The notes under the pieces were generated by a model that ran no database searches, was not told the origin of the DNA, and saw only the letters and a list, made by a program, of their open reading frames with translations. Positions 13,008 to 63,788 of a DNA stretch of 64,000 bases are shown here, piece after piece (positions within the stretch are counted from its first letter, which is position 1; each line of letters starts with the position of its first letter). Origin of the DNA: a virus; the IMG/VR virus record IMGVR_UViG_3300009008_000024, positions 1 through 64,000 of that record. One strand, 5' to 3'. The translations under genes and the position numbers were made by a program.

Positions 13008-13017
13008 AACTATTTAT
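13008..13017 (+). promoter_or_regulatory. putative late promoter element AACTATTTAT
   Basis: Exact AACTANTTAT match in the 113-nt gap between the fibre operon and the scaffold gene, 35 nt upstream of the chosen ATG. Apart from this element and the ribosome-binding site I see nothing else in the gap. Confidence 0.55.
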
Positions 13018-14397: not shown

Positions 14398-16092
14398 ATG
14401 TCTATTTTAGAAAAATTGACTGAAGGGATCGTTAGTCGAGACCTCAGTCGGGAGAATCATGCTCTTCTCGATAAGTGGGAAAAGACTGGTCTCTTAGAAG
14501 GATTGGAGGACGAGGGCAAGCGCAATAGCATGGCGGTTCTTCTCGAAAACCAAGCAAAAGAGCTTCTTCGAGAAGCATCAACCATGGCAGGTGCCACCGG
14601 CGGAAACGTCGAAGGTTTTGCTGCTGTAGCATTTCCAATTGTTCGTCGCGTTTTCGCGGGGTTAATTGCTAATGACTTAGTGTCGGTTCAGCCGATGAGT
14701 TTGCCTAGCGGACTTATCTTCTTCCTGGACTTCACTTTGGGCATGACTGATGGCACGACCACTAGGTTGGGTCAAGATCTCGATGACTCACTTTACGGTG
14801 GTGGCGTAGTTGCGTCTCAACTCACCGGAGGTGTTTCGTTGACAGGCGATAATGTCAGCAAGTCGTTCTATAACCTTAACAACGGGTATTCGTCTCCAAC
14901 GGGGTCTGTTACGGGCATCGCCCTCACTGATCTTACGTCGGGATCTGCTGGCGATCAGGGAGTAATTGATGGTCTCATCAACTATGATCCGGATATTGCT
15001 TCTGGTACTTCGGTTTATGTTGGTTCGCTCGCACTTGATGATCTGACACAATTGAATCGTGAAGATTTGATTTCGGTGACCATTGGGGCCGGATCTATTC
15101 CGCTTGGACGACAAGCGCGACGTTTGACTGTTCTGAGCGGTACTGCTGGGACTGACATTTTGGTCGTTATTGCTGCTAGTGGTTCGGAAACCCCGGACGA
15201 CTTAAATACAATCGGCGCTACTGTTGATGTCACGTATGTCGAGACTGACAACTTCCGAACTGGCGGAGCAATTGGTTCCGTTGAGGGTGTTGATAACTGG
15301 GGATTGGAAAATAATCCAAACATTCCAGAAATCGACATCAAGGTTGACAGTGTTGCTGTGACTGCAAACACCAAGAAGTTGAAAGCAAAGTGGACTCCCG
15401 AATTGGGACAAGACTTGAATGCTTATCATAATCTTGATGCAGAGGTCGAGTTGACTAGTATCCTGTCTGAGCAAATTGCTCTTGAAATTGACCAAGAAAT
15501 CTTGGAAGATTTGGTAAAGGGTGCGAAGGCTGGTCAATACTACTGGAGTCGCCGTCCTGGTCGATTCTTGGTCCGAGATACCGGCGCCGCAATTAGCACT
15601 GATGCTAACGAAGCGTTGCTTGGTGGAGACTTTACTGGTAATGTGTCGGAGTGGTACGAGACTCTTCTCGAAACCATTAATGACGTATCTGCTCAGATTC
15701 ATCGTAAGACGCTTCGAGGCGGAGCAAACTTTTTGGTTTGTGGTCCAGAAGTATCTAACATTCTTGAATTCACTGCTGGGTTTAAAGCTCGCGTGACTCA
15801 CGATGATGATAAGGGCAATGCTGGTGCGGTCAATGTTGGTAATATTTCTAAGAAGTGGGATGTCTTTGTTGACCCCTATTTCCCGCGAAATGTTATTTTG
15901 GTTGGACGTAAGGGATCTTCTTTCTTGGAAAGCGGATATGTTTACGCGCCTTATGTGCCACTCCAAACGACCCCCACGATCTTCGGCATTGAAGATTTCG
16001 TGCCCCGCAAGGGTGTCATGACGCGATATGCCAAGAAAATGGTGCGTCCTGATATGTACGGGTTGGTTATCGTCGAAGACTTGCTGGGTTAA
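14398..16092 (+). CDS. major capsid protein, T4 gp23-like
   Basis: 564 residues from the ATG at 14398 (AAGGAGG 9 nt upstream). The segment FAAVAFPIVRRVFAGLIANDLVSVQPM is the conserved gp23-type N arm; EIALEIDQEIL and the C-terminal MTRYAKKMVRPDMYGLV region are also typical. T4 gp23 is matured by gp21 cleavage after Glu65; here LRE|A at residues 57-60 fits the (L/I)xE|(A/G/S) cleavage rule at nearly the same place. It follows the scaffold gene and ends in a strong terminator, which suggests high-level expression of a scaffold-capsid unit. Confidence 0.9.
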   Translation: MSILEKLTEGIVSRDLSRENHALLDKWEKTGLLEGLEDEGKRNSMAVLLENQAKELLREASTMAGATGGNVEGFAAVAFPIVRRVFAGLIANDLVSVQPMSLPSGLIFFLDFTLGMTDGTTTRLGQDLDDSLYGGGVVASQLTGGVSLTGDNVSKSFYNLNNGYSSPTGSVTGIALTDLTSGSAGDQGVIDGLINYDPDIASGTSVYVGSLALDDLTQLNREDLISVTIGAGSIPLGRQARRLTVLSGTAGTDILVVIAASGSETPDDLNTIGATVDVTYVETDNFRTGGAIGSVEGVDNWGLENNPNIPEIDIKVDSVAVTANTKKLKAKWTPELGQDLNAYHNLDAEVELTSILSEQIALEIDQEILEDLVKGAKAGQYYWSRRPGRFLVRDTGAAISTDANEALLGGDFTGNVSEWYETLLETINDVSAQIHRKTLRGGANFLVCGPEVSNILEFTAGFKARVTHDDDKGNAGAVNVGNISKKWDVFVDPYFPRNVILVGRKGSSFLESGYVYAPYVPLQTTPTIFGIEDFVPRKGVMTRYAKKMVRPDMYGLVIVEDLLG

Positions 16093-19160: not shown

Positions 19161-19170
19161 AACTATTTAC
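19161..19170 (+). promoter_or_regulatory. putative late promoter element AACTATTTAC
   Basis: Nine of ten bases match AACTANTTAT (last base C). It lies in the 112-nt gap before the sheath gene, 63 nt from its ATG. The rest of the gap is A/T-rich with a weak T6 run and no convincing terminator. Confidence 0.45.
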
Positions 19171-33565: not shown

Positions 33566-34411
33566 ATGATTAATGTTATTGGATTGGGAAATGCGGGATG
33601 TAAGATCGCCGACTTGCTAGGAGAATATGATCCCTACGCGGTGTATAAGATTGATCCGGGTTTGGAAAAAAAGAAAAATAATTTTTCCATCGCCCGTCGC
33701 GAAAAACCAGAAGATTATGAAAGCAAACTTCCCGCCAGAACGATTAGCGCTCTTAGGAAAATCAAAGGTCCGGTTGTCTTGATTGTCGGGGGAGGCGGAA
33801 AGATATCGTCCGCCACCTTGCGCATACTAGAATGCGTTCAAGAAAATCCTATTGAGGTGATGTACATCAAACCAGATCCTTCGGTGACCAGCGCCGCATC
33901 TATTGGGAGAGACAAGATAACATTTGGAATATTGCAGCAGTATGCCAGATCTGGCGTCTTTGAAAGGATGTATATAGTCGCTAACGCGGACATTGAGAAG
34001 GCGATTGGCAATGTTCCGGTTTCTACCTACTATGAAACCATAAATGCTAGAATAGCATCTACTTTTCATATGTTGAATGTCTACAAAAATACGCCCGCCA
34101 ATTTTTCCAGTTTTTTCGAACCGGATGACATCTCTCGCATCTCTACCATCGGAGTTGGGAGCATGGATAAGGTGGTAGATCAGATGTTTTTTGGGATTGA
34201 TTATGTGGGCGAAAAAAACTATTATTTTGCGATAAACCAGAAACAATTAGAGCAAGATCCATCACTGCTCAACAACATCAAGCGGAGGGTGAAACAAAAA
34301 GATAAAACTATTAGGGTGGGGTTCGGAGTTTATCCCACTCCCTATGAGGAAAACTACATTTATATACTAGCAAGCACAAAAATCATACAAGGAGTAAATT
34401 ATGATGAGTAA
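33566..34411 (+). CDS. FtsZ/tubulin-superfamily protein
   Basis: 281 residues from ATG 33566. The N terminus INVIGLGNAGCKIADLL matches the FtsZ start (IKVIGVGGGGGNAV). LIVGGGGKISSATLRILE lies where FtsZ has its GTP-binding loop GGGTGTG. MYIVANADIEKAIGNVPVST aligns with FtsZ ITIPNDKLLKVLGRG, and FEPDDISRISTIGVGSMD with the synergy loop NVDFADVRTVM.. GSG. Order and spacing fit the GTPase and activation domains. The phosphate loop is altered (GKISS for GTGTG), so GTP use is uncertain. Length is short for FtsZ (about 320-380). Phage tubulins (PhuZ) centre phage DNA in jumbo phages; whether this protein polymerises is unknown. Confidence 0.6.
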   Translation: MINVIGLGNAGCKIADLLGEYDPYAVYKIDPGLEKKKNNFSIARREKPEDYESKLPARTISALRKIKGPVVLIVGGGGKISSATLRILECVQENPIEVMYIKPDPSVTSAASIGRDKITFGILQQYARSGVFERMYIVANADIEKAIGNVPVSTYYETINARIASTFHMLNVYKNTPANFSSFFEPDDISRISTIGVGSMDKVVDQMFFGIDYVGEKNYYFAINQKQLEQDPSLLNNIKRRVKQKDKTIRVGFGVYPTPYEENYIYILASTKIIQGVNYDE

Positions 34412-34688: not shown

Positions 34689-34698
34689 AACTATTTAT
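34689..34698 (+). promoter_or_regulatory. putative late promoter element AACTATTTAT
   Basis: Exact AACTANTTAT match in the gap before the L,D-transpeptidase gene, followed by AATA, so the stretch TTATAATA also resembles a generic -10 box. This places the transpeptidase in the late, virion-associated class. Confidence 0.55.
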
Positions 34699-34723: not shown

Positions 34724-34762
34724 ATGAAAAAAGTTAAAGGGAATGTAAGGGGGTTGGAATAG
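34724..34762 (+). CDS. possible 12-codon leader peptide
   Basis: ATG 34724 follows AAAGGAG at suitable spacing and encodes MKKVKGNVRGLE before a TAG that overlaps the GTG start of the next gene (TAGTG). This could be a leader that couples translation of the transpeptidase gene. Too short for statistical support. Confidence 0.3.
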   Translation: MKKVKGNVRGLE

Positions 34763-36420
34763 TGAGTGAGATGAAAATCTTATTAGAGAATTTTAAAAAA
34801 TATCTCCATGAAGAAGAGAGGGAAGAGTTGCAAGAAGGCATTCTTCGAGATTTGTTCAATAAACTTCCGGTGGGAAAGATATTTAAACGTATTTCCAATA
34901 ATGCGCGCCGCGAATGGGGAGGTCACTCTTCCTGGGAGATGGAAGATGCGCATAGGCACATGCTCGCCGCCGCTTACTTCACCGATGAATTTGGGAAATT
35001 GACCGCCACCAGCTTGGGCACTGGTCATGAGATAAAAGGAGTCCTTAAAAAACTTTTACAGGGGCAATTCGGTGGATCCGGATGGAAAATGGATCACGCG
35101 AATAATGAGTTGGGCATGGCGATTGCTCAACAATATCCCGATAAATCTCTTGCCCACTATAATAAGATAGTCTTTAACAAAATTAAGGATGGCGACTTTT
35201 ATCTGGAAGATGGTCGCACTAAATATAAGGATGCCCCTCATAAAAGGGGAGACGCCCTCGCCTCCCTACAGAGTATAGAGACAGATCACCCCGACCAAAG
35301 TCGCGCACTTGAAGAAGGTGCGTGGGACACCGCAAAGGACACCGTAAAGGATACAGCCAGGAGTTTGAAGAAGCGATGGGACACTGCATTCGCAGACGAC
35401 GCAGATGCTCCCGACACGGCCCCAAAAGACAATGCTCCCGACACGGCCCCAAAAGACAATACGCCCGTCCCCTCCCCCAAGAAAAAGAAGATAAAGAAGA
35501 GAAGGAGGAAGAAATCTCCTTATACTGAGCAAATGACAAAACAATTGACCTATTTGGCGGATAATGCAAAACGTGCGGGAATTAATGAAAATTTTGTAGT
35601 GGTTGATGACGTTAATGGTGGAATGTATGTGTTTGCGCCCGACTTTAAACAACTGGCACGTTTTCCTGTGATCACAGGCGGCGATGCGGGGGAGGTAGAT
35701 GAATTTAATTTTGCCGATTGGTTGCGACAAGAAGATATGCTCCCGACGTTCAAGGACGCTAAAAAGAATATAAAATCCGACGATGAATTTGATCGGGAGA
35801 GGGGGGAATATGTGTATGGGAGACTTTTTGAAGCATTTCTCAAAGCGAGAGCTGAGGCAGGTCATAAGATCACCCCATCTGGCGTTTTTACTATCAGCAA
35901 AATACGGGCAGGCGAAGATATAACAGATACCTATAATTATGGTACCAACATATTTTCGTTGTCTCCGGGAATCGACCCCCAAACTCTCCCCACTGTGCGC
36001 CTCGCTAAATCCCTTGCCGGCAAAGATATACAAGGAGGTAGCACCATAGCGATGCATGGTACTGGTAATCCAGATCGTATAGCGGCTCTCAAAAAGGCGA
36101 ACTCTTATGCAAGAAGAGGAGATTTCGACAAGGCGGCGAAAGCATTAGGACAGACTCCCAGTTATGGATGTATAAATTTAGAGAATCGCAATGCCAAGAA
36201 ACTGGCCAAGTACATGTCTCCCGGGTCACAAGTCTTTATTTTGCCCGAGGACGACACAATCGTAAGGGTGGGTACCTTTAACAGGTTCACACAAGAACTA
36301 GAAAACATTACTATGATGGCAGGAAAATGTTTTGACAAAGTTGTTGATTTCTTTGACAATGATCCGGTAATTCCCAAAGCGGAAATTGAAAAGAAATATA
36401 AGAAACATAGAATTACTTAA
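34762..36420 (+). CDS. L,D-transpeptidase (YkuD-type) with N-terminal capsid-targeting-like segment
   Basis: 552 residues. The C-terminal third carries the YkuD catalytic pattern: His432 in IAMHGTGNPDRI and the SYGCINL motif with Cys470. Family role: cysteine peptidases that form or cut 3-3 (L,D) peptidoglycan cross-links. The N terminus MKILLENFKKYLHEEE followed by ELQE|G (Glu25/Gly26) resembles T4 capsid-targeting sequences removed by the prohead protease (rule L/IxE|G/A). A middle part includes duplicated APDTAPKDN units and a Lys/Arg-rich stretch (about 240-255), perhaps DNA-binding. I infer an internal head protein injected with the DNA that remodels or loosens host wall. A late element lies upstream; the M15 peptidase follows. 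Confidence 0.75.
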   Translation: MSEMKILLENFKKYLHEEEREELQEGILRDLFNKLPVGKIFKRISNNARREWGGHSSWEMEDAHRHMLAAAYFTDEFGKLTATSLGTGHEIKGVLKKLLQGQFGGSGWKMDHANNELGMAIAQQYPDKSLAHYNKIVFNKIKDGDFYLEDGRTKYKDAPHKRGDALASLQSIETDHPDQSRALEEGAWDTAKDTVKDTARSLKKRWDTAFADDADAPDTAPKDNAPDTAPKDNTPVPSPKKKKIKKRRRKKSPYTEQMTKQLTYLADNAKRAGINENFVVVDDVNGGMYVFAPDFKQLARFPVITGGDAGEVDEFNFADWLRQEDMLPTFKDAKKNIKSDDEFDRERGEYVYGRLFEAFLKARAEAGHKITPSGVFTISKIRAGEDITDTYNYGTNIFSLSPGIDPQTLPTVRLAKSLAGKDIQGGSTIAMHGTGNPDRIAALKKANSYARRGDFDKAAKALGQTPSYGCINLENRNAKKLAKYMSPGSQVFILPEDDTIVRVGTFNRFTQELENITMMAGKCFDKVVDFFDNDPVIPKAEIEKKYKKHRIT

Positions 36421-36466: not shown

Positions 36467-37075
36467 ATGCTAAAAATTATTTTAGGAGTGGGAATGGTTT
36501 GCGCGGGAACGCTGATCGGGCCCGGAAAAGTTTACGATTTAATGACCAACCAAAAAAGCGTTGCCGACTATACGGCAACATTAAAGATTGTTAAATCCTT
36601 AGAAGATGGCAAACTTTCCCAGTTAGAGAAATCAACATATCGTCGTGATGGGTACACAAAAAAATACAATAGATATAAGAAAATTAGAATAAGATATTTG
36701 GATAGGTATCGTTATGTTGTGGGGAAACATCGATTAAATCACTTTCTGTGTAGGGATAAGCGTGTGAAATATAGTCCCACGACTTATGTAATAATTAACC
36801 CCCAACTTTTAGAAAAAGTGATGTTAATTGATGAGGCGAGTGGTGGTCAATTTTTTATTACATCTGGGCACCGCACTCCCACCTACAACGCTACCCTCCA
36901 CGGTGCCACCAAGAACAGTCGCCACCTAGAAGGGCGAGCAGTTGATCTTATCCCTATTAATATTTCATTAAAAGAATTGGGAAAAATTATAAGAAGTGTA
37001 GAAAAGGCGCGCCCGGATCTTAAAGGGTATATGCATATTTATGAGAAGCATGTCCACACGGATGTCGCCCGTTGA
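36467..37075 (+). CDS. membrane-anchored M15-family peptidoglycan peptidase
   Basis: 202 residues. N-terminal hydrophobic segment (MLKIILGVGMVCAGTLIG) looks like a signal anchor. The catalytic core has SGHRTPTYNATLHGA, then SRHLEGRAVDL (zinc ligands His and Asp) and HIYEKHVHTDVA (third His), the M15 D,D-/L,D-carboxypeptidase layout. Likely acts on peptide stems in the periplasm, as an endolysin-like or wall-trimming enzyme. It follows the L,D-transpeptidase by 46 nt, so the two wall enzymes may act together. The gap has a TATAAT-like box (36435) with no good -35. Confidence 0.8.
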   Translation: MLKIILGVGMVCAGTLIGPGKVYDLMTNQKSVADYTATLKIVKSLEDGKLSQLEKSTYRRDGYTKKYNRYKKIRIRYLDRYRYVVGKHRLNHFLCRDKRVKYSPTTYVIINPQLLEKVMLIDEASGGQFFITSGHRTPTYNATLHGATKNSRHLEGRAVDLIPINISLKELGKIIRSVEKARPDLKGYMHIYEKHVHTDVAR

Positions 37076-55932: not shown

Positions 55933-57030
55933 ATGACTAAAAAGAAAACATTGCTCAAGGAAGGGACTGTACGCCAATTTATGAAATTGGCGAACATAGA
56001 ACCTCTCACTCCCGGTTTCGTCGAGAAACTTTATGAAGGAGAGGAAGTCCAAGAAGAGGAAGTCCAAGAAGAGGAAGTCCAAGAAGAGGGCACCAAGAAA
56101 GATGACGAACTCAATGATACGGAAGATGACGGTGCGCGCGGCGAGAAGAAGGGCGATGAAGCATATGTAAACGAGCAAGAAGAGGTAGAAGTCGAAGACG
56201 AAGTGGAACTTGGCGGCGAGGAAGTACTTGGCGGCGAGGAAGAGGAAGAGGTGGATGTTACTGCTCTTGTTCGGGCAATTGCTGATGCTGTAGAAGCGCA
56301 CACTGGAGTCTCTGTCGATGTGGCAGATGAGGACGCGGGCGAAGAAGTAGAACTTGGCGCGGAAGAAGAAGTAGAACTTGGCGATGGCGAAGAAGTAGAA
56401 CTTGGCGCCGAAGAAGAGGTCGAAGAATTAGAGGAAAGCGAAGAGGTCCAAGAAGAGACCCAAGATTTGGAGGAGATAATCTCCACCATCGCTGAAAACG
56501 TCACAAAGCGTCTCGAAGAGATGGCAAAAAAAAAAATAAAAATGCATGAAGGTCCGTGGGACACTTGGTCCAACGCGATAGATATGGGATTGGGCGGCGG
56601 CGGCGGCAAAGAGTTTGAAAAACAAGATTATGCCGCTAAGGTTGCTCACGGAATGGCACAACGCGCCAAGAGACTCCCGTCTGAAGACCCGGCACTCTCG
56701 CGCAAGAAGCACGCAGCGCGCAAAAAGCGTGGAGAAAAATCAAAGCGCGCACGAACAGGATATGAAGATATCACCACTGCTATAAAGGCGCACCCTAATG
56801 CTCCCGAGGGATTCGGGGGTGGTCAAAAAGATGTAGATGAACTCGCATCCGCCCTGGGATTACGCGCTGGAAAAGATTTTAGAAATTATCCTCAAATGAA
56901 GAAAGCAGTATTGAAAGCGCTCGACGGAACGCCAAAGGCACCTGAAAAGAAACTCCCCGGCAATAAACGCCCAGGAGGACCGCGAAAGGTTATCCAACCA
57001 AGGCGCCTTACCATGAGAGACGTTTCATGA
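55933..57030 (+). CDS. acidic virion/prohead-core-type protein
   Basis: 365 residues. Starts TLLKEGTVRQFMKLANIEPL; LKE|G at residues 8-11 fits the prohead-protease rule, so the N terminus may be a capsid-targeting segment. Residues about 35-180 are extremely Glu-rich with in-frame repeats (VQEEE three times; EEVELGAEE several times). The C-terminal third is basic (RKKHAARKKRGEKSKRAR) and may bind DNA. Charge layout resembles prohead core or internal proteins such as the gp22-like scaffold. Late element upstream, terminator downstream. Confidence 0.6.
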   Translation: MTKKKTLLKEGTVRQFMKLANIEPLTPGFVEKLYEGEEVQEEEVQEEEVQEEGTKKDDELNDTEDDGARGEKKGDEAYVNEQEEVEVEDEVELGGEEVLGGEEEEEVDVTALVRAIADAVEAHTGVSVDVADEDAGEEVELGAEEEVELGDGEEVELGAEEEVEELEESEEVQEETQDLEEIISTIAENVTKRLEEMAKKKIKMHEGPWDTWSNAIDMGLGGGGGKEFEKQDYAAKVAHGMAQRAKRLPSEDPALSRKKHAARKKRGEKSKRARTGYEDITTAIKAHPNAPEGFGGGQKDVDELASALGLRAGKDFRNYPQMKKAVLKALDGTPKAPEKKLPGNKRPGGPRKVIQPRRLTMRDVS

Positions 57031-60940: not shown

Positions 60941-61288
60941 ATGGTCATGAAAAGAATAATGGAGAATTTTAAGTATTTTGTGCGAGAGAGCACAGAGATG
61001 CCCGACTTTAAATTTGAAGCAATTCTTAAAAATGCTAGCACGAAGGAACGAGGAAAGCAAGATATTTTGAATGATATCCGCGCTCTCAAGGGGATAACGG
61101 TGGTATATATCGTGTCGGCAGAAAAGCCGCGAGCAGGAGAGGATATGTCTCTCTTGTCCCTCAAGGTAGATAGGTATGTGCTGGGGCATGCCTCGGTTAG
61201 TAGTATAATTAGCGAATTAGTAAAGAACATCAAGAGGATGGATGGTGTCCTTTCTTTTGCTGTCAAGGGTATTCCGGAACAAATATGA
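60941..61288 (+). CDS. unknown protein with virion-type N-terminal helix
   Basis: 115 residues (113 from the second ATG at 60947). MKRIMENFKYFVRES resembles the MKILLENFKKYLHEEE start of the L,D-transpeptidase, a pattern common at the N terminus of internal head proteins, though no LxE|G cleavage site is clear. The remainder is an alpha/beta domain (ITVVYIVSAEK, MSLLSLKVDRYVLG). Function unknown. Confidence 0.5.
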   Translation: MVMKRIMENFKYFVRESTEMPDFKFEAILKNASTKERGKQDILNDIRALKGITVVYIVSAEKPRAGEDMSLLSLKVDRYVLGHASVSSIISELVKNIKRMDGVLSFAVKGIPEQI

Positions 61289-61841: not shown

Positions 61842-63788
61842 ATGGCGAGACACACCTATTTAGCACTTTTATTTTTATTTTTGTTGCATGGGTGTTCGTG
61901 CGATGAGAATCTAACATATGTGTGTCCGCCTCCCCAACCTTGCGTAAATCTTTCTGATGGCGGAATAGAAGTGTTGGACGAGAGTTTCATCTCTCGCACG
62001 AAGGGTGAATGCCGATTAGGATACACTGACTGCGATGAGGAAAACAAAGACATCTGCATTGGTCAAATAAACCCAACAGAAGAGACATGTGACGGTTTGG
62101 ATAATGATTGCGACGGCATAGCAGATAATGGGTTGTTTATAGATGAAGACAATGATTCATTCAACGATCCAGATTCTTGCTTGGGACCAAAAACAGATTG
62201 CGATGATGACGACCCAGCAGCATTTCCAGGCAATGAAGAAGTGTGTGACGGCGTGGATAATGATTGTGATGGCGAAATAGACAACATAGGACCATTCGAA
62301 TGTTGGACTGGTGGAGAGAGCGCAGTATTTAATGAGAATTCTCCATGTAGGACAGGTGTTGTAGAGTGTGTTGATGGTGCATGGTCAGGGTGTTTGGGGC
62401 AAGTTTTCCCAGTGCCAGAACAGTGTGATTTAATAGACAATGATTGCAATGGAGAAGTTGATGATTCTCCATGGGGAGAGGGAGAACCATGTGGACCGCA
62501 AAGCACCATAGGGCAGTGCTCATATGGTTATGGGGTGTGCGTCTCGGGCGAGATGTATTGTATCGATGCCGTCTATCCGCAGAATGAAGCATGTGATGCT
62601 GTTGATAATGATTGCAATGGGTTTGTTGATGAAAATTTAGAAAGACTTTGCGAAACTGAATGTGGGTATGGCGTAGAAGAGTGCTCTGGTGGCATTTGGG
62701 ATAATTGTAGTGCTCCTGCGCCGCAGGATGAGATATGCGACATGATCGACAACGACTGCGACGGAGAGGTGGATGAGGGATGTTTGTGCATTGTAGGCGA
62801 TTCTAGGACGTGCCAGGAGGAGAATATGTATGATCCTGTAAGCGGAGAGCATAGGAATTGTGGTATCGGGGTAGAATATTGTGATATTTTTGGAATGTGG
62901 GGAGACTGCTACTGGACAGGCATTCAGGCCGAAGTTTGTAATAACTGGGACGATGACTGTGACGACATAATAGATATGATGCAGTCATCTTGTGGAAATC
63001 AGGATAGTTCTACGGTGGGAGTTGGCGAATGTAAACTTGGCACCACCACATGCATAGAGGGTGAGTGGGGAATATGCGAAGGTGAAATATCTCCCATGGA
63101 AGAAGTGTGTGATCAACTGGACAATGACTGCGATGGAGAGATTGATGAAGATCTGAACTCTCATGAGAAAGTTGATATGGTATTTGCTATTGATATATCT
63201 GGTTCCATGTGCAATTATGTAGACGCACTGGCGCAGGGAATAATGGCATATATTGCCGACTTCGAAGATACGGAACATAGGTTTGGGTTGGTTGTGTTCC
63301 CCCCTCCCAACTATTCACCAGTAGGGGAATATCAACCCAGGTATCAAGTAATGACAATTCCTCCTCTTGTTGACGTGACATCTTTCTTATTTGAATTGGC
63401 AAATCTAGATTGTAATGGCGGAGGATCAGAACCAAGTTATGATACGATGTATGATCTGGTGCGCCCCGACGACCCAGCTGGCATAGGGTGGAGAGACGAT
63501 GCCTATCCCTACATAATAATGATTACAGACGAACCGGCACAGTCTTGGGACAACCTAGGAGAATCCAATATTGCTCCCCACACCAATAATTGTGCAATAG
63601 GCGAATGTGTTGCCGGCGATAAGATAGAAGTGTTTGTTATTTCAAAACCAGGATATCTGTGGAGTTGGGACGATGTTATTTATGGAGACTTCGACAGATA
63701 TTTTGCTATAGATCCAGCAGAAGGAAGTAGGTATACTATAATGCTGCAAGAAATTTTTACAAACGTGTGTTTGCCAGAAGGAGAGTAG
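61842..63788 (+). CDS. lipoprotein with MopE-type metal-binding repeats and a VWA domain
   Basis: 648 residues. Signal peptide with lipobox LHGC (Cys18). Residues about 75-440 carry seven repeats of the type CDGxDNDCDGxxD (for example CDGLDNDCDGIADN, CDGVDNDCDGEIDN), known as a putative metal-binding motif in MopE-like and many delta-proteobacterial surface proteins; Asp/Asn loops suggest calcium. Then a von Willebrand A domain begins at DMVFAIDISGS, with the MIDAS DxSxS at 451-455. Should sit on the host envelope or decorate the virion. Unusual cargo for a T4-type phage; may derive from the host. Confidence 0.8.
   Translation: MARHTYLALLFLFLLHGCSCDENLTYVCPPPQPCVNLSDGGIEVLDESFISRTKGECRLGYTDCDEENKDICIGQINPTEETCDGLDNDCDGIADNGLFIDEDNDSFNDPDSCLGPKTDCDDDDPAAFPGNEEVCDGVDNDCDGEIDNIGPFECWTGGESAVFNENSPCRTGVVECVDGAWSGCLGQVFPVPEQCDLIDNDCNGEVDDSPWGEGEPCGPQSTIGQCSYGYGVCVSGEMYCIDAVYPQNEACDAVDNDCNGFVDENLERLCETECGYGVEECSGGIWDNCSAPAPQDEICDMIDNDCDGEVDEGCLCIVGDSRTCQEENMYDPVSGEHRNCGIGVEYCDIFGMWGDCYWTGIQAEVCNNWDDDCDDIIDMMQSSCGNQDSSTVGVGECKLGTTTCIEGEWGICEGEISPMEEVCDQLDNDCDGEIDEDLNSHEKVDMVFAIDISGSMCNYVDALAQGIMAYIADFEDTEHRFGLVVFPPPNYSPVGEYQPRYQVMTIPPLVDVTSFLFELANLDCNGGGSEPSYDTMYDLVRPDDPAGIGWRDDAYPYIIMITDEPAQSWDNLGESNIAPHTNNCAIGECVAGDKIEVFVISKPGYLWSWDDVIYGDFDRYFAIDPAEGSRYTIMLQEIFTNVCLPEGE

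Follow-up and report, generated by a model that had tools for sequence, protein, structure and literature searches.

An L,D-transpeptidase-domain protein of an uncultivated marine T4-like phage bears an N-terminal tag that resembles the T4 capsid-targeting sequence

A gene of an uncultivated marine T4-like phage encodes a protein with a YkuD (L,D-transpeptidase, LDT) domain behind a short N-terminal tag, and we consider it likely, with a probability of roughly two in three, that this LDT would be made late, carried as internal cargo of the phage head, cut, and delivered with the DNA. Its packaging, cleavage, ejection and activity on the wall are all deduced from sequence features. The head-cargo reading draws on the family to which the tag belongs, its PSSM scores, its register with the T4 capsid-targeting sequence (CTS), an [LIV]xE motif that moves with it and the presence of gp23 and gp21 in the large carriers, and also on a late element, the lack of a Sec route and the occurrence of the tag on other wall enzymes (M23, VanY-like). 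The window, that is the whole stretch of 64,000 nucleotides analysed, makes up most of an 80.8-kb viral record that is probably incomplete. The features of the LDT region are as follows (a slash marks a possible cut).

34689 to 34697, + strand: late-type promoter element AACTATTTA before the LDT gene, from sequence counts and relatives
34762 to 36420, + strand: 552-aa protein made up of tag, DUF6973, basic linker and YkuD (LDT)
34771 to 34812, + strand: N-terminal tag MKILLENFKKYLHE, residues 4-17, probable cut after Glu17 (LHE/E)
34828 to 34839, + strand: LQE/G, second candidate prohead-protease site (residues 23-26, Glu25)
34876 to 35193, + strand: DUF6973 domain, residues 39-144, no assigned function (Pfam, 5.3e-7)
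35308 to 35319, + strand: LEE/G, third candidate site (residues 183-186, Glu185)
35479 to 35520, + strand: basic linker KKKKIKKRRRKKSP between DUF6973 and YkuD, a possible DNA-binding stretch
35596 to 36240, + strand: YkuD catalytic domain, residues 279-493, with His432 and Cys470 (Pfam, alignment)
36467 to 37075, + strand: membrane-anchored M15 (MepK-like) peptidase, untagged, adjoining the LDT gene

Comparison of the N-termini of related phages revealed that unrelated proteins start with forms of MKLLMENWRxY[LM]xE and that these starts occur in clusters. The consensus of the tag is MKLLLENWRKFLNE, with a length of 14 residues. The back-translated tag pattern gave at least 120 stretches in IMG/VR and a scrambled control (same codons, other order) gave 0 matches there, while a single spurious match was obtained in 1.04 Mb of viral DNA drawn at random. 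Of 72 records, 25 contained the pattern, and the 17 random records were not among them; no record contained it in reversed form. A second search, anchored on residues 1-8 only, yielded 209 distinct tags, reduced to 207 by removal of 2 spurious ones. At least 207 ORFs of uncultivated T4-like viruses begin with the tag, often in tandem, and they fall into about 102 unrelated passenger families. Among the passengers are NUDIX proteins, zeta-type and polynucleotide kinases, protein kinases, GNAT proteins, a DNA methylase, HNH and exonuclease proteins, tRNA-ligase-type phosphodiesterases, a tRNA nucleotidyltransferase, M23 and a VanY-like wall enzyme. The Leu, Asn, Arg and Phe/Tyr codons of the tags vary synonymously, which argues that the tag is selected at the protein level.

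A PSSM built from the tag family scored the LDT start at 30.5 and the start of a second tagged protein of the same phage at 16.9, whereas none of 21,668 control Met starts scored above -1.6. In the LDT tag, Phe replaces the Trp of nearly all other tags, and the score falls near the 5th percentile of the tag family. An [LIVMF]xE motif beginning at residue 12-13 was found in 196/207 tagged ORFs, a set partly selected for that motif, versus 78/1430 untagged ones. In about ten tags with a one-residue insertion, [LIV]xE shifts as a unit (YLLTE/A, YILKE/S). Each of the seven tagged records that reach 115 kb has gp23 as well as gp21; the association of gp23 with the tag is only suggestive, since gp23 was also present in 3/17 randomly drawn records no shorter than 60 kb. 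A tag-only query of isolated phages returned just weak Streptococcus-phage noise, the query being short and of low power. Neither the tag string nor a single tag on about 100 families was found in the open-access literature searched.

Tandem arrays of tagged genes were seen in L214, L133, L155, L205, L215, L233 and in record G046 at 17-22 kb. The tag DNA can be identical between adjacent genes of one genome, as though new passengers received it by copying of a cassette. Two tagged proteins, L092:11149-12330 and L125:4765-5892, have YHGTS/YHYT starts that recall motifs of ADP-ribosyltransferases (compare T4 Alt), and no Pfam match was obtained for either.

The second tagged protein of the phage answers a check proposed with the original prediction, a search for the same N-terminal segment on other proteins, which thus turned out positive.

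60947 to 61288, + strand: second tagged protein, starting MKRIMENFKYFVRE, with a possible cut before the S that follows, 113 aa, no assigned function

It sits under a longer antisense ORF, and its homologue in a related phage (L102:8949-9293) is likewise tagged. Together with the more than 200 tagged ORFs elsewhere, it gives the proposed head packaging a stronger basis than the one originally offered. Another shared N-terminal pattern, LLKEGTVRQFMKLANIEPLTxxFV, was observed at 55933-57030 of the window, L102:18479-19294 and L090:13792-14484; the pattern occurs on late-promoter genes, contains LKE/G and LYE/G and is perhaps a second head-protein signal. The protein encoded at 61842-63788 of the window is unusual for a phage: it has a lipoprotein-like start and carries six copper-binding motifs of the MopE type.

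In T4-type phages the CTS is an N-terminal propeptide of 10-19 residues whose targeting residues are aromatic; in T4, residues 4 and 7 act in targeting and residues 8 and 10 in processing, and the CTS has been proposed as a means by which T4-like phages carry varied proteins (PMC9026906). T4 IPII and IPIII start with MKTYQEFIAE/A, and when this start was slid along the tag family the sole fit was at offset +4, with a score of 15.3 against 1.1 for the next best. In this register T4 residues 4, 7, 8 and 10 map onto tag W8, F/Y11, L12 and E14. The LDT tag has F8 and Y11 at the targeting positions and L12-H-E14 at the processing positions. As expected of a CTS, the signal is found on unrelated proteins, both in this phage (the 60947 protein) and on 102 passenger families elsewhere. 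The tag could instead be a sorting signal for an address other than the capsid, such as the membrane or a replication site, as an amphipathic helix at the N-terminus can direct a protein to many places. We consider this unlikely, given the single-register match to the experimentally mapped signal of T4, the co-moving [LIV]xE, the presence of head genes of the T4 type in all large tagged records and passengers that are reminiscent of ejected proteins. Points against the head-cargo reading from the tag itself are its Phe in place of Trp, its low score within the family and the P1' Glu after LHE.

The N-terminal segment of the LDT, MKILLENFKKYLHEEEREELQEG, includes both LHE and LQE. The original prediction relied on LQE/G, which is indeed present at Glu25. 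Similar sites ([LI]xE[GAS] within residues 8-42) occur in 11/96 ORFs of the window, so that LQE/G alone is weak evidence of packaging, and LxE/G by itself was rejected as a sign of it. The rule nevertheless seems to be active in the clade, because the two sites of the capsid protein are conserved: LTE/G is kept in 60/63 and LLE/G in 63/63 distinct relatives. The [LIV]xE of the tag itself is LHE/E at residues 15-18 of the LDT, ending at Glu17, and the residue that follows is Glu rather than Gly, Ala or Ser, Glu being the commonest P1' of the tag family. The LDT would thus probably be cut mainly after Glu17 and not solely at Glu25, where the cut had been placed, with Glu25 as the second and Glu185 as the third site. 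A candidate cut at Glu185 would part the YkuD half from DUF6973.

The prediction of a late-type element upstream of the LDT gene was right in substance. AACTATTTA at 34689 lies 82 bp upstream of the tag ATG and 73 bp upstream of the GTG. Five + strand copies were counted in the window against about 0.5 expected for the 8-base core; four of them precede genes or operons and one lies within a coding region. The other copies that precede genes, and the major capsid protein, are as follows.

13008 to 13016, + strand: late element before the scaffold-like/major capsid protein operon
14398 to 16092, + strand: gp23-type major capsid protein, with the LTE/G and LLE/G sites
19161 to 19169, + strand: late element before the tail sheath gene
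55871, + strand: late element AACTATTTA before the gene of a 365-aa protein

In relatives, AACTATTTA was located 53-90 bp upstream of the tail sheath in 5/5 genomes where the pair was listed, and also upstream of neck, fibre and other structural-type genes. The T4 sequence TATAAATA was rejected as the late promoter, as it would read on the opposite strand and AACTATTTA fits the gene positions better. A conserved copy of AACTATTTA lies within the helicase gene, some 400 bp upstream of the gene that follows (window 41318; L095:8335, L098:8423, L108:947, L115:8684), and is a possible internal late promoter. Sheath and baseplate hub genes were also identified in the window, and genes for ssDNA-binding, recombinase, RNase H and helicase proteins appear to be present, being named by position and similarity to relatives. 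The gp23 gene was found in the window. No gp21 was seen in the window, which counts against the head-cargo reading, though in a record that is probably incomplete; the search for gp21 covered the relatives, and gp21 was found there.

The LDT ORF is open over 552 aa and starts with GTG, and an in-frame ATG at 34771 opens the tag. YkuD (PF03734) matched with E 1.7e-11 and 45.4 bits against a cut-off of 23.4 (Pfam), and the profile was covered at positions 4-146 of 146, that is nearly in full. In an alignment with annotated Rhizobium and Shinella LDTs, His432 (36055-36057) and S467-Y-G-C470 (Cys codon 36169-36171) coincide with the invariant His and S.GC, and the Pfam match and this alignment confirm the full YkuD active site that had been proposed; DUF6973 had been missed. 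Ordinary YkuD LDTs have SHGCIR where the phage LDT has SYGCIN, and a 22-residue insertion separates His from Cys in the latter. The linker KKKKIKKRRRKKSP is the top K/R cluster among the ORFs of the 80.8-kb record. AlphaFold2 models of the whole LDT and of residues 26-160 were set aside, with pLDDT of 38.8 and 41.1.

LDTs had also been said to be rare in phages, and the searches agree. The LDT, YkuD or DUF6973 gave no tblastn relative among 50,697 phage records, neither domain was found in 34 related viral contigs, mostly fragments, and PhaLP lists 10 YkuD phage lytic proteins (PMC8310338). The match to the LDT in IMG/VR was a fragment only, 100% identical over the matched residues 173-552. 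In plasmids only distant LDTs were detected (E about 1), and none in genome contigs. A phmmer search of PDB sequences gave no relative of the LDT or of the M15 protein.

Export to the periplasm by a signal peptide or anchor is usual in the YkuD family, though it is not part of the domain definition. No signal peptide, anchor or membrane segment was identified in the LDT, whose maximum 17-residue hydropathy (KD17) is 0.74. With no Sec route, the LDT is a periplasmic-type enzyme without its usual way out, and a wall enzyme of this kind makes sense if the particle carries it to the wall. Phages with virion-borne wall cutters exist. It counts against the head-cargo reading that a T4-type tail is expected to deliver to the cytoplasm, while the substrate of YkuD is periplasmic.

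The M15 protein has an N-terminal membrane anchor and the full Zn-ligand pattern (HxxxxxxD, HxH). Its sole NCBIfam peptidase match is MepK, at 27.5 bits against an equivalog cut-off of 185, which places the relation at the superfamily level only; it is possibly an endolysin or a partner of the LDT. In five relatives the counterpart of the gene at 34401 is directly followed by a gp32-type gene, and here the LDT and M15 genes lie between the two. Since the flanking genes are direct neighbours in those relatives, the LDT and M15 genes are an insertion with its own late element. Their adjacency, their joint insertion, the single late element upstream of both, the membrane anchor of the M15 protein and its MepK match, far below cut-off though it is, would also suit a wall-remodelling or lysis-timing pair acting late in the producing cell, in which the LDT would make 3-3 cross-links and the MepK-like peptidase would open them. 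That the LDT is no head cargo but one half of such a pair seems improbable, as it lacks a signal peptide or anchor and bears a head-type tag, and the M15 protein is untagged.

As head cargo, the LDT would follow the course of a T4 internal protein. An amphipathic helix formed by the N-terminal 14-17 residues would bind the scaffold core, as the T4 CTS does, so that the precursor would be built into the prohead. The prohead protease would cut after [LIV]xE, at Glu17 first and perhaps at Glu25 and Glu185 too, and the enzyme would stay in the head, held on the DNA by its basic linker. On infection the LDT would exit through the tail with the DNA, and the YkuD domain would edit the peptidoglycan of the new host at its stem peptides or cross-links. 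The wall role is the least certain part: the LDT may build 3-3 links, for repair or exclusion, or may edit stem peptides as Tlde1a does, and the lysis protection, superinfection exclusion or wound sealing originally proposed are putative roles. In an alternative that shares the packaging steps and differs in the last step only, the delivered LDT would attack instead of repairing, and the wall of the infected cell would be weakened or altered. There is a precedent for a YkuD enzyme delivered against bacteria in the type VI effector Tlde1a, which is an L,D-carboxypeptidase that also performs D-amino-acid exchange (PMC9638812). By analogy with it, and with the His-Cys insertion and the tagged wall hydrolases in mind, an attacking LDT is possible, if doubtful.

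For the wider system, it is on balance somewhat probable from the sequences that uncultivated marine T4-like phages use a detachable head-loading tag to take enzymes of an open-ended range into the capsid for delivery at infection, with the LDT as one wall-editing payload. The payload families exceed 100 and cover kinases, tRNA/RNA repair, NUDIX, methylase and wall enzymes. The CTS of T4 was already known; what is new is one recognisable tag on about 100 families as a probable large plug-in payload system. Because 14 residues mark the cargo from sequence alone, effectors of the first minute of infection could be listed from metagenomes. The tag offers a ready test of the long-open question of which proteins travel in heads, and for what reason, and is a possible new packaging handle for T4-type delivery particles. 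If the head-cargo reading is true, the LDT would be a virion-borne enzyme that builds the wall rather than cutting it, to our knowledge the first.

Compared with the YkuD family (PF03734), the phage LDT has in common the near-full profile match, the catalytic His and S-x-G-C; it differs in having no signal peptide and in its fusion to DUF6973 and a phage tag. The tag is like the T4 CTS in being N-terminal and short, with two aromatics three apart followed by hydrophobic-x-Glu, in being common to unrelated proteins, and in that its large carriers have a T4-type capsid and protease. It differs from the T4 CTS in being four residues longer, in Trp/Phe replacing Tyr4 and in a relaxed P1'. T4 loads a handful of proteins by its 10-residue signal, and whereas that CTS heads a few small basic proteins, the tag heads more than 100 passenger families that would be packaged likewise. 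Like T4 Alt, other ejected head proteins and Tlde1a, the LDT would be an enzyme that a contractile injection particle takes up and brings to a bacterium. T4 Alt modifies RNA polymerase, unlike the phage LDT, and Tlde1a, unlike the tagged LDT, has no CTS and acts as an effector from cell to cell.
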